This document shows, in pieces, positions 8,390-50,321 of a stretch of 64,000 nucleotides of DNA (positions within the stretch are counted from its first letter, which is position 1; every line of letters begins with the position of its first letter). A model generated the notes under the pieces. The model saw only the letters and a list, made by a program, of their open reading frames with translations, did no database searches and was not told the DNA's origin. The stretch lies in contig JARUPZ010000017.1 of assembly GCA_031213475.1 (NCBI GenBank), positions 9,799,087-9,863,086 of the forward strand. Reading direction: 5' to 3'. The stretch is from Nereocystis luetkeana (lineage: Eukaryota > Sar > Phaeophyceae > Laminariales > Laminariaceae). Both the position numbers and the translations under genes were made by a program.

Positions 8390-8479
8390 ATGGTTCGCAA
8401 TGCGCCGGTGACGTCAGCTCTGATGCTGATCGCAGCTTCGTCTGTGCTTACGCTTTCTGGAGCCGCCCTGGAGTATAAG
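8390..8479 (+). CDS. Gene 1 exon 1: start codon and signal peptide
   Basis: The start ATG sits in ccaccATGG, a strong initiation context. The 30 codons encode MVRN followed by an Ala/Leu-rich hydrophobic core and end in LEYK, phase 0. Donor is GTGAGG. Exon 1 of the paralogue begins MVRTSS and ends HYEYT in the same phase, which fixes this start. Confidence 0.9.
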
Positions 8480-48200: not shown

Positions 48201-50321
48201 CTGTATTTTGTGGATCGTTGTCGTTCTGAATGTCCGCGAGCCGTTACCCTGACAGCACCACCGACAACAGACAGCAGACAGATTTTGCCATCTGTGTTCA
48301 CGGCTACCGCGCGTTTCGTACGGTGCAGGCAGCACTCCAAACTCCTACCAATAACATCAACCGCTGTAGTCAGTAGCCACGAGTTCGATGGTTGCGGGAG
48401 CGGGGGGAACTATAAATAATACTGCTGTACGATTAGTTGCGGCCATGATAATTTGGTTTTCCCATTGATTGATTTCATTTGTGCGTAAGTCTTCCTCGTC
48501 TTACGTACTTTTGGTGGGAAAAGCGTCGTGCTTCTTCACAGCCGAATTTTGGTTTCCGTGTTCTTTGGATCTTCCTAGGGCTGCAGTACCTTTCGTTGTG
48601 TCACCACGGACTCCTTGATCGAAGGGTCAACATGACAACAACAACAAGTAAGTGCTGTATGTACACCAAAAAGAAAATAATGGGAAAAATATGAAGGAAA
48701 AGCAGGGAGAAGCAAGGAACATAGACAAGAAAAACAGCGAAACTCAAAAAAAAGAAAAAGAAGAAAGACGAAACACTCAGGGCGCAGGCCGAGTCCGAGG
48801 CAAGGTTTCTGCTGCTGGTACGATCAGACCTTCCTCCAGATATATATGTCGAGCTGGTGGACCAATTGGGGGTTAAATGAACTATTAATAATAAGCGACA
48901 ACGAAATCGGAAACAAGAGGAGAAATACCTAAGGAGGCATCCTACAAAAGAACAGGTAGGTGTATCACGCAGCCTGCAAAGTTGAGTATACACCCCTTAA
49001 CTCACAGCTGACGTATTTCATAACAGATAACAGTACAGCATAAAAACTTCTTCATTCAGGGAAAACAGCTTTTCGAGCCACGGCCGGCATCATCCTCAAC
49101 GGGCGCCAGTTGAAGGAGGTACGCACGATAGTGGGTGAATGAAGGTGCATGCCGCACACATCCCAAGCATCATAAGTCGTATTCTTGGGTTCGTCCGTAT
49201 GTTCCACATACATTATACCATGGGGGGAAATAAATGGAAGCCTCAAGACAAATACTGGTAAACCTCTACTATCATCGTAGGATGCCTTCAAGGGTCACAC
49301 AAATTTAACGAGTGACTCACGCTCATTCTTCTCCGAGAGCGTTTCTACAGTTTGGTACCAGCCGATGCAGAATTATTGGCAGCGTACGAGGTCGGCGGGG
49401 GGGGGGTTGTTGTTGTTGTTGTTGTTGTTGTTGTTGTTGTTGTTGTTGTTGTTGTTGTTCTCACATTAACTTACAATACAATGCAGTCCGTGGTCGCAGG
49501 ACAGGCTCCAATAACTCTGGAGAGGAAGAAATACCTCAAGTAGGTACCATGGACTAGGCAGCGAATAGGACCCCACGACGAACAAAAACACCCTGCGGTC
49601 GGGTTTCGCGAGCAAACTTCTTCGAAGTCATGTTTCGTGTGCGACTTAGAAATCCTCATGCTGAGAGTTTTAAAAAAAATGGCACCACCACCTCTACTGC
49701 TGCTGCTGCTGCTGCGGCATTGCTCCAGAAGCCAAACTAATGTGGCAAAACAGCAGTGTTCGCGTGAGTGGGGTGTTTGTGGGTTGGACTGGACGGCAGA
49801 CTGCAGCTGATGTGCAGCCGAGCCGCTGCTGCCGCTATTTTGTTTTTGTTCATAACTTTTACCATCGTAGGAGGTTTTGCCCTCAGCGATCTTCCGGACA
49901 AGCCGGGGCACAGCTAGGTAGGTGTCGTCCCTTCTCCCCCCCCTCGGTACATGCTCTCTTATTTTTCACGCATAACTGGTACTATTAATAGGTAGGCTTA
50001 TTTATTAGCACACCCACTGGTTGGTTGTCGATTTTCATCGAATGTTGTTCACTCTCTCGCGCTTTCCGCCGATCAATTTTGATGCAAGAAAAAGTCCCTA
50101 CGTGGAAGTACGCACCCGGTGAACTCGTCCCCACGAAAATTATGACCGTAATTAGGCGTGTATATAGACCAACTACTATTAATAGGTCACCAAGAGGTCG
50201 TCGGCTGTGAGCTTATATACTGGTCTGTTTCACTCACCGTGTACTCGTAGTGAGCGTTGGAGAGGGTCAGCGCGGAAGCCGCAACGAGCAGGGCGGAGCC
50301 CACGGAGGAAGTGCGAACCAT
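36008..50321 (-). CDS. Secreted spondin-N-like protein, gene 2 (six exons, 227 aa)
   Basis: Exons in order of transcription: 50321-50238, 44794-44729, 41269-41186, 40140-39987, 38107-38018, 36213-36008; 684 nt including TGA. All introns are GT-AG (5443, 3459, 1045, 1879 and 1804 bp). The signal peptide is MVRTSSV plus a hydrophobic core ending SNA. The mature part has RNLTYQQPFSP, VNTNDGFVGFD, PPVWDAGTE, CTHIPGPACD, PGEGYVHTHRGVHG and WLNPAAEVYIA. The WDAGT element is the form found in F-spondin-type domains. Exon lengths 2-6 and all phases equal those of gene 1, and about 129 of 199 residues in those exons match. The role is inferred as extracellular or cell-surface, with ligand unknown. No frameshift or stop is seen. 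Head-to-head shuffling is excluded: the two genes converge. Confidence 0.9.
37118..37215. mobile_element. MITE-B copy, intron 5 of gene 2
   Basis: TTAC on the left and TTGA on the right, arms ggactgcagtcccgttttg and aaaacggggctgcagtcc, with a short A/T-rich loop. Confidence 0.8.
38018..38107 (-). CDS. Gene 2 exon 5: NTND motif
   Basis: Acceptor ctcttccag, donor GTAAGAG. Encodes V-NTNDGFVGFDS through SSKILPPVWDA in the same split-codon phases as gene 1. Confidence 0.94.
39112..39160. mobile_element. MITE-A half copy
   Basis: Only the left arm (cgggccatagtaaacaggacc with caaatattgttgg) is present, ending in a T tract. No right arm is found nearby. Confidence 0.6.
39987..40140 (-). CDS. Gene 2 exon 4
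   Basis: Acceptor gttgagcag, donor GTAAGT. Encodes ALIADPEVAPYVCGYVVG, MPGVTER and CGDGAVISMATMI, 154 bp and ending one base into a codon, as in gene 1. The CGY and CGD cysteines are conserved, while the segment between them is the most variable part of the pair. Confidence 0.93.
41186..41269 (-). CDS. Gene 2 exon 3
   Basis: Acceptor ataatag, donor GTGAGA. Encodes DINIFKEGLPATNALKVLAE and ends GDASLLG, 28 codons, phase 0 at both ends. 16 of 28 residues match gene 1. Confidence 0.9.
42195..42291. mobile_element. MITE-B copy, intron 2 of gene 2
   Basis: TTAACCCCTTTGGGACCGC on the left; gcggtgggaagagggttat on the right, where the last base of TTAA has changed. Arms match around the gtcccgttctggggaca and tgtccccaaaactggac segments. 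Confidence 0.85.
42970..43010. mobile_element. MITE-B fragment
   Basis: Only a left arm (taggactgcagttccgatat) remains, directly before the SINE-A copy. A lone right arm (gccgcagttctaaaagggtt) lies at 43382-43403 just after that SINE, so the SINE may have inserted into this MITE. Confidence 0.6.
43034..43360 (+). mobile_element. SINE-A, full length, tRNA-like head
   Basis: The head (43034-43112) begins ggtcgccccggtggttcaag and carries a B-box-like gggttcgagcc; it could be drawn as a weak tRNA cloverleaf. The body follows with tttgcaaaaataaa, caattgttgagagcgcc, ggcacaattcgatgcgagtc, cgagaagattt-complement and gtgaccccggatctgagtta blocks. The same order occurs in reverse at 52460 and 55302. 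Confidence 0.85.
43966..44062. mobile_element. MITE-B copy, near-perfect palindrome
   Basis: TTAACCCGTTTAGGACCGC on the left, gcagttctaaaagggtcaa on the right. Arms with cccgttttggggacaaact and tttgtccccaaaacggg are perfectly complementary. Confidence 0.9.
44566..44664 (+). mobile_element. LINE 3' end (truncated)
   Basis: gtttcttccactccagagtt, cctgcgaccacggactgc and gagttaatgtgagaacaacg match the last 100 bp of the LINE-like element ending at 57628. The AAC tail is reduced to one or two units. It lies about 65 bp downstream of exon 2 of gene 2 in transcript terms. Confidence 0.8.
44729..44794 (-). CDS. Gene 2 exon 2: N-terminal spondin strand
   Basis: Acceptor gtccgccag, donor GTAAGT, 22 codons beginning IRVRNLTYQQPFSP and ending AHTK, phase 0 at both ends, 66 bp as in gene 1. 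Confidence 0.93.
45346..45442. mobile_element. MITE-B copy, intron 1 of gene 2
   Basis: Left end ccctttcaggactgcat, right end cggtcgttctaatagggttaa. The arms carry compensating changes around ctcgtgttgggg and ccccaacacggg, so the hairpin stays paired. Confidence 0.85.
45481..45587. mobile_element. Second MITE-B copy 38 bp from the previous one
   Basis: TTGACCCCTTTAGAACTCC to cagtcctgaaagggttaa. The loop holds an extra duplicated tgttcccaat/tgtccccaaa step, making this copy about 10 bp longer than the others. Confidence 0.85.
46075..46215 (-). mobile_element. SINE-B fragment with (GTT)n
   Basis: The + strand shows gtcagcgatcttctgga, gtcacaggtg, ttcatttttatcgc and gttcagccttcccattg, as in the SINE-B body at 54970-55110, then (GTT)8. 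The head is missing. Confidence 0.55.
46975..47216 (-). mobile_element. SINE-A, headless copy
   Basis: It has the SINE-A body from gctcatcccatttattatc to caattgaatcc and tttgca, then breaks off where the tRNA-like head should begin. Confidence 0.8.
47238..47756 (+). repeat. LINE-related repeat, first of two neighbouring copies
   Basis: It shares with 48064-48650 the blocks ctgtgctgcac, cagacag...gaagaga.., gcgatcgttgat, ccgcgag, ctgacagcac, cgcgtttcgta or gcgtttcgta, gcaggcagcact, gtagtca, ccacgagtt, gcggccatg, cagccgaattt, ggatcttcct and accacggactcctt. The final accacggact...gttaatg.gaga block resembles the LINE 3' end. The copy stops at a TACCAGGTA motif. Confidence 0.75.
48064..48650 (+). 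repeat. LINE-related repeat, second copy
   Basis: Same block order as 47238-47756 in the same orientation, about 820 bp further on, ending acatgacaacaacaacaagt. The (AAC)n end supports a retroposed origin for the pair. Several extra insertions make it about 70 bp longer. Confidence 0.75.
48781..48876 (+). other. Short coding-like stretch, unidentified
   Basis: After aaacactcag the + strand can be read as AQAESEARFLLLVRSDLPPD followed by IYVELVDQLGVK and a TGA. The residue composition looks like real protein and not like the surrounding A-rich repeat. A gag-type fragment of a retroelement is possible. I cannot name a family, and the length is too short for confidence. Confidence 0.3.
49059..49117 (+). 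other. Possible + strand exon inside intron 1 of gene 2
   Basis: Bounded by a pyrimidine-rich acceptor (cttcttcattcag) and a GTACGC donor, the stretch reads KTAFRATAGIILNGRQLKE. Both the splice-like ends and the content suggest an exon or exon relic on the strand opposite to gene 2. I have no partner exons, so this stays a candidate. Confidence 0.3.
49404..49545 (-). mobile_element. LINE 3' end with (GTT)n tail
   Basis: (GTT)17 at 49407-49459 is followed by ctcacattaacttacaatac, agtccgtggtcgcagg and aactctggagaggaagaaat, the reverse complement of the LINE end at 57536-57628. On the - strand the tail reads (AAC)n. Confidence 0.85.
49856..50175 (-). mobile_element. SINE-B copy, diverged
   Basis: The + strand has cgtaggaggttttgccctca, gcgatcttccggacaagcc, gattttcatcgaatg, tcgcgctttccgc and gcaagaaaaagtcc in the SINE-B order. 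The tRNA-like head is decayed beyond about 50110. Confidence 0.65.
50238..50321 (-). CDS. Gene 2 exon 1: start codon and signal peptide
   Basis: On the - strand the start is gcatcATGG; the 28 codons encode MVRTSSVGSALLVAASALTL, then SNAHYEYT, and the donor is GTGAGTG. It is two codons shorter than gene 1's exon 1 but shares MVR, the hydrophobic core and the EY end at a phase 0 junction. Upstream sequence is purine-rich on the - strand with no clear TATA box. Confidence 0.9.

Follow-up and report, generated by a model that had tools for sequence, protein, structure and literature searches.

How did two genes come to face each other with the same exon layout set in introns that have no overall similarity, and what do they encode? 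The question is raised by a stretch of 64,000 nucleotides from the kelp Nereocystis luetkeana (contig JARUPZ010000017.1, hereafter C17; C17:9799087-9863086), which we call the window and to which all coordinates without a contig name refer. Gene A (8390..25043, + strand) has six exons and encodes 229 aa, and gene B (36008..50321, - strand) has six exons and encodes 227 aa, each with a spondin domain. An earlier note, made from the sequence of the window, had described the pair and ascribed it to an inverted duplication followed by transposon growth. We consider it probable, at roughly 80%, that A and B are functional-looking genes for small secreted proteins, each consisting of a signal peptide and a single F-spondin (FS, Spond_N) domain, and that they belong to a cluster shaped by gene birth and death. 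They are two ordinary members of a spondin-domain cluster of about half a megabase.

Two genes within a cluster

The exons of both genes were rebuilt from the DNA. Those of A are 8390-8479, 14911-14976, 18126-18209, 20257-20410, 21940-22029, and 24838-25043 (+ strand); those of B are 50321-50238, 44794-44729, 41269-41186, 40140-39987, 38107-38018, and 36213-36008 (- strand). All 10 introns have GT-AG borders, exons 2-6 (66, 84, 154, 90, and 206 bp) agree in length and phase, and the proteins are identical at 129 of the 199 residues that these exons encode; up to this point, the earlier description of two facing six-exon genes was fully reproduced. Coding sequence accounts for 690 nt within 16,654 bp in A and for 684 nt within 14,314 bp in B. 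The longest intron of the pair measures 6,431 bp, and the mean intron length is 3.2 kb in A and 2.7 kb in B.

Among six-frame open reading frame pieces of at least 18 aa from both stretches, those from exon 6 match by themselves at E = 4.9e-37; hence, the likeness of A and B is far beyond chance. It also carries a coding signature, the differences in exons 2-6 being mainly third-position (47, 39, and 86 at codon positions 1, 2, and 3, respectively), with rates of nonsynonymous and synonymous substitution of 0.25 (dN) and 0.86 (dS). The ratio dN/dS is about 0.29 for A-B and 0.20 for B and its close relative C, introduced below. A and B are real in gene structure.

The genome (465 Mb in 1,987 contigs) was searched with B (47 matches) and with A (91 matches at E <= 10), and about 258 kb of joined sequence was searched by tblastn. 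Thirteen gene-like copies were found on C17 between approximately 9.746 and 10.261 Mb, spanning about 515 kb in the order L(-), M(+), A(+), B(-), C(-), D(+), E(+), F(-), G(+), H(-), I(-), J(-), K(-). A fourteenth copy, N, is located at 4.81 Mb, 5 Mb from the cluster. Seven genes (A-E, L, and M) were modelled in full, and all seven have the same six-exon layout and phases, exon 1 ranging from 66 to 90 bp, exon 5 being 84 or 90 bp, and exon 6 ranging from 194 to 209 bp. For each of F-K and N, the searches revealed three to five exons, and these copies are regarded as gene-like only.

The cluster also contains broken copies. In a truncated pseudogene between A and B (28104..30956, - strand), exon 1 (30956-30891) is retained together with a frameshifted exon 6 that contains a TGA (28325-28104); for exons 2-5, there was no match at E < 0.05. 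Both this third copy, within the 11 kb that separate A and B, and the large cluster itself had been overlooked in the earlier note. Further remnants are a fragment with a stop (C17 9990246-9992127; its exon 4, at C17:9990246, carries the stop), lone exons at C17 10108949 and 10149421, and an exon 6 match at C17 10016706 that is doubtful (E 0.59). A match at C17:10149257 that spans residues of exons 2 and 3 resembled an intronless retrocopy; in the DNA it is a lone exon 2 with splice sites. The region of K (C17:10251678-10254890) recurs on five unplaced contigs, each about 23-30 kb long, without a single difference over 3,213 bp (C864, C959, C1046, C1197, and C725), and contigs C1066 and C1616 show the K match pattern too. 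The unplaced K copies reflect either redundancy of the assembly or a recent and perfect array of repeats, and they were left out of the gene count.

The existence of such remnants, in particular the one between A and B and the stop-bearing exon 4, speaks for reading A and B themselves as decaying pseudogenes whose exons are open by chance. This is very improbable, as the frames of both genes are complete, all their splice sites are present, and the excess of third-position differences and the dN/dS values given above argue against decay. The possibility that one gene gave rise to the pair in a single inverted duplication, with the remaining copies arising later, was assessed with trees of the seven full-length genes and of 18 rows; in the latter, F-K and N are represented by exons 5-6 or by exon 6 only, four bacterial rows have long branches, and animal FS sequences were left out. 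B and C are sisters (83% identity), with support of 97/98 in the seven-gene tree and 96/95 in that of 18 rows, and I joins them (93/94). In the 18-row tree, A falls into a group with E, G, J, and K (86/88, on a branch that is not starred). Constraining A and B into one clade costs 53 log-likelihood units with seven genes and 72 with 18 rows, and the approximately unbiased (AU) test rejects this clade in both cases (p = 8e-8 and 6.5e-51, respectively). Exon 6 proteins, comparable in 14 copies, place A nearer to E (82%), K (81%), D (79%), and G (within the same 79-82%) than to B (74%), while B and I are 90% identical. What favours a duplication is that A and B face each other with the same exon layout, that the nearest row to A by path in the seven-gene tree is B, and that, among the seven modelled genes, A again has its top full-length identity with B (64%), followed by E (63%) and D (62%). 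This identity counts against our reading, and A's own place, which the seven-gene tree does not settle, is not firm. Nonetheless, A and B are not each other's closest relatives in either tree, and the single inverted duplication proposed earlier can be considered extremely unlikely. Since the cluster holds genes in mixed orientation, a facing pair is to be expected, and the orientation of A and B is best explained by the mixed-strand cluster.

Under our preferred reading, the 13 gene-like copies would have split into several subfamilies, with A and B in different ones. The five introns would date back to an ancestor shared by all modelled genes and would since have diverged and changed in size independently.

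Divergence of exons and introns

The paired introns of A and B show no blastn similarity besides short repeat pieces in intron 1, in line with the earlier note. A closer comparison is offered by L and M, which lie head-to-head at C17:9745953-9759384. Their exons 6 are identical (0/194 differences), and their exons 2-5 differ at 4/66, 6/84, 8/154, and 5/84 positions (23/388 in all), while none of the five intron pairs yields a blastn match at E 1e-4. Exon-anchored alignments of the two genes do reach the intron edges, extending into the intron by at most 87 bp in front of exon 5 and by 19 bp in front of exon 6. In a comparison without exon 3, which was not found in the stretch compared, introns 4 and 5 of N can be aligned with those of M at 84.6-88.4%; exon 6 of N has five base differences from both L and M. 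Codon bias alone was rejected as the cause of the likeness of L and M, as 18 of 188 same-residue codons differ, vs. 67 expected at saturation (50-86 in 2,000 draws).

The simplest reading of these data is a conversion tract in exon 6 combined with fast intron turnover. A broader scheme, in which cluster members are homogenised exon by exon while introns drift freely, perhaps via conversion from spliced complementary DNA, would, if general, help to explain frozen exons within unrelated introns. We find it improbable. The aligned intron edges of L and M make exon-limited conversion less likely, and against its generality, E and G, which encode the same exon 6 protein, can be aligned beyond that exon (78% between -149 and +806, and 69% further upstream).

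Transposon growth in the introns, another element of the earlier explanation, stands in part. Intron 1 of A contains a non-autonomous-looking terminal-inverted-repeat element of about 0.42 kb (10698..11117, no strand assigned), directly flanked on both sides by CCTT. It has 42 other genome places at 94-99% identity on many contigs, with the best 40 of 18,305 candidate places scored and 7 of the 42 places lying in the region of K or in its copies on unplaced contigs, and it looks recently mobile; a further copy (96.7% over 367 bp) is carried by intron 1 of E. On the other hand, 22% of A/B intron bases resemble another place in the cluster, vs. 20% outside genes in the window; hence, cluster-wide repeats are scarcely more frequent in these introns than around them. 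Intron 5 of A contains, in addition, a perfect CTA trinucleotide array of 123.7 copies (23022..23392, no strand assigned).

The introns had also been called giant. In the kelp Saccharina japonica, genes average 12,489 bp, 6.99 exons, and 1,816 bp per intron, and transposons constitute 41.76% of the genome, according to the figures given in PMC11836290. Compared with these averages, A and B (16.7 and 14.3 kb) are somewhat above the mean but not unusual for kelps, and as gene architecture the pair is ordinary. Nor did the expectation hold that annotation would miss such genes: splice-aware annotation finds them, and four spondin-domain genes of S. japonica appear in PMC11333212. Elsewhere in the window, the segment 60041-61706 (- strand) is G+C-rich, has long open frames, and is transposon-like by eye; none of five pieces, comprising six-frame pieces from the right end (60-61.7 kb) and three others from the window, matched Pfam at E <= 0.01.

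A stand-alone spondin domain

The identification of the proteins as spondin-like was upheld by profile search. With the Spond_N profile (PF06468), A scores 26.4 bits and B 35.0 bits against a cut-off of 24, and with the bacterial-type spondin model NF038123, they score 127.7 and 130.9 bits, respectively, against a cut-off of 40. Spond_N is the only Pfam match of either protein at E <= 10; no TSR repeats follow the FS domain, with which both proteins terminate. The domain is encoded by exons 2-6, whereas exon 1 (8390..8479, + strand, in A; 50238..50321, - strand, in B; both with a phase 0 donor) encodes a hydrophobic, signal-peptide-like segment with small-residue cleavage-like sites. This call was made on hydropathy only. 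After the N-terminal stretch, neither protein has a 19-residue segment with mean hydropathy above 1.56, and each has one N-glycosylation sequon, in exon 2. To judge by these features, A and B are probably secreted, with the FS domain standing alone behind a putative export signal, as in the algal SPL proteins.

The motifs NTND and DAGTE of A and B align with the Ca2+-ligand motifs PSPD(W) and DAGTD of FS domains, and residues D134, D158, and E162 of B are invariant in all 11 aligned rows (seven algal and four bacterial). In F-spondin, the third ligand acts via its main chain, and hence the replacement of D by E at that position looks tolerable. The Ca2+-ligand positions are conserved in A and B, which suggests Ca2+ binding. 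Bacterial relatives were represented by 4 of 13 loci in the tree and by 8 of 13 in the structure alignment; the structure predicted for one of them is a C2-like eight-stranded beta-sandwich. The cysteines are at positions 93, 119, 170, and 178 in A and 91, 117, 168, and 176 in B, none of them before the first strand, and these four domain cysteines are common to all seven modelled algal genes.

Taken together, these data suggest the following scheme. A protein of the A/B type would be exported from the cell, fold into the C2-like beta-sandwich of FS domains, and use the acidic residues in its NTND and DAGTE motifs to bind one Ca2+. In this form it may dock to membranes or to charged polysaccharide of the extracellular matrix, the probable setting being matrix remodelling in reproductive tissue. 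The matrix role is proposed by analogy with the algal proteins compared below.

Several observations weigh against the scheme. A is barely above the Spond_N cut-off, and of the 194 positions in the profile, the matches span only 24-129 (A) and 24-152 (B). The Pfam Spond_N model gave zero matches in the whole genome, and likewise in all 14 control genomes; the former is probably due to the splitting of the domain across exons, as protein queries did match. The predicted structure is that of a bacterial relative and not of the spliced algal proteins, with a mean predicted local distance difference test score (pLDDT) of 75.2 and four segments below 50, and Foldseek gives this model template modelling scores (TM-scores) of only 0.52-0.63 against FS entries. 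The A/B domain has no counterpart of the N-terminal cysteines engaged in disulfides in F-spondin, so the algal disulfides should differ from the animal ones, and C91 and C117 of B, conserved in seven algal genes, are absent from the four bacterial rows. A less probable but real alternative is that the spondin-like domain does a job other than that of animal FS domains, e.g., in binding of sulfated polysaccharides or in defence, and that the link to matrix and reproduction is incidental. The much higher scores with the bacterial-type model than with Spond_N are in its favour, as is the fact that the bacterial relatives are stand-alone proteins with signal-like N-termini; we know of no role for them. 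The conserved Ca2+-ligand positions speak against it, and so does the expression of FS-only genes in other algae: four are up-regulated in the kelp sorus (PMC11333212) and four in a red alga treated with an inducer (PMC8991923).

A spondin relative with 32% identity is also encoded by a viral-classed contig of 45 kb (IMGVR_UViG_2902429739_000003), the sole one among 107 pattern matches in that collection. As for other domains, EsV-1-7, described in PMC7457493 as expanded in brown algae, was abundant, matching in all 150 scored candidates (the best 150 of 1,710) and in 0 of 14 control genomes.

Spondin-domain proteins in algae, animals, and bacteria

The spondin family is already known, whereas no description of a genomic cluster of brown-alga spondin genes was found in the open-licence literature, in which, judged by titles and text passages, PMC11333212 was the only paper found to concern such genes. 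Spondin-domain proteins are candidate matrix proteins common to animals, red and brown algae, and bacteria, and their kelp relatives respond to spore formation. The cluster provides a defined gene set for testing the role of the domain in a walled multicellular lineage. With its subfamilies, broken copies, and one dispersed copy, it is also a natural case for comparing the turnover of exons and introns.

The nearest parallel is SjSPL1-4 of S. japonica, four spondin-domain-only genes that are up-regulated in the sorus, the spore-bearing tissue (PMC11333212); for one spondin-domain gene of this kelp, the fold-change column gives 10.5. Like A and B, they come from a brown alga and have the FS domain alone, and they are described as extracellular-matrix proteins. 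They differ in number, with four up-regulated genes there vs. 13 gene-like copies and an outlier here, the comparison being by description only. NySPL1-4 of Neopyropia yezoensis likewise have the FS domain alone, and an inducer of gametogenesis raises all four (PMC11333212, PMC8991923); this alga is red, and it too was compared by description only. The spondin genes of the two algae point to matrix remodelling in reproduction.

The FS domains of mindin (3d34) and F-spondin (3q13) share with A and B the Ca2+-site motifs and the predicted fold. They differ in disulfide pattern and, across the fold, are about 15% identical to the bacterial relative whose structure was predicted. Moreover, both animal proteins contain TSR repeats and F-spondin also a reelin domain (PMC11333212), while A and B are without TSR repeats. 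Bacterial NF038123-type proteins (e.g., L051 from Geminicoccaceae and L052 from Sedimenticola) differ from A and B in having no introns, no equivalents of C91 and C117, and some longer loops. They nevertheless align with the algal proteins over the whole domain at 33-39% identity (four rows) and share with them the motifs NTND or PTND, DAGTE, and IPGP.

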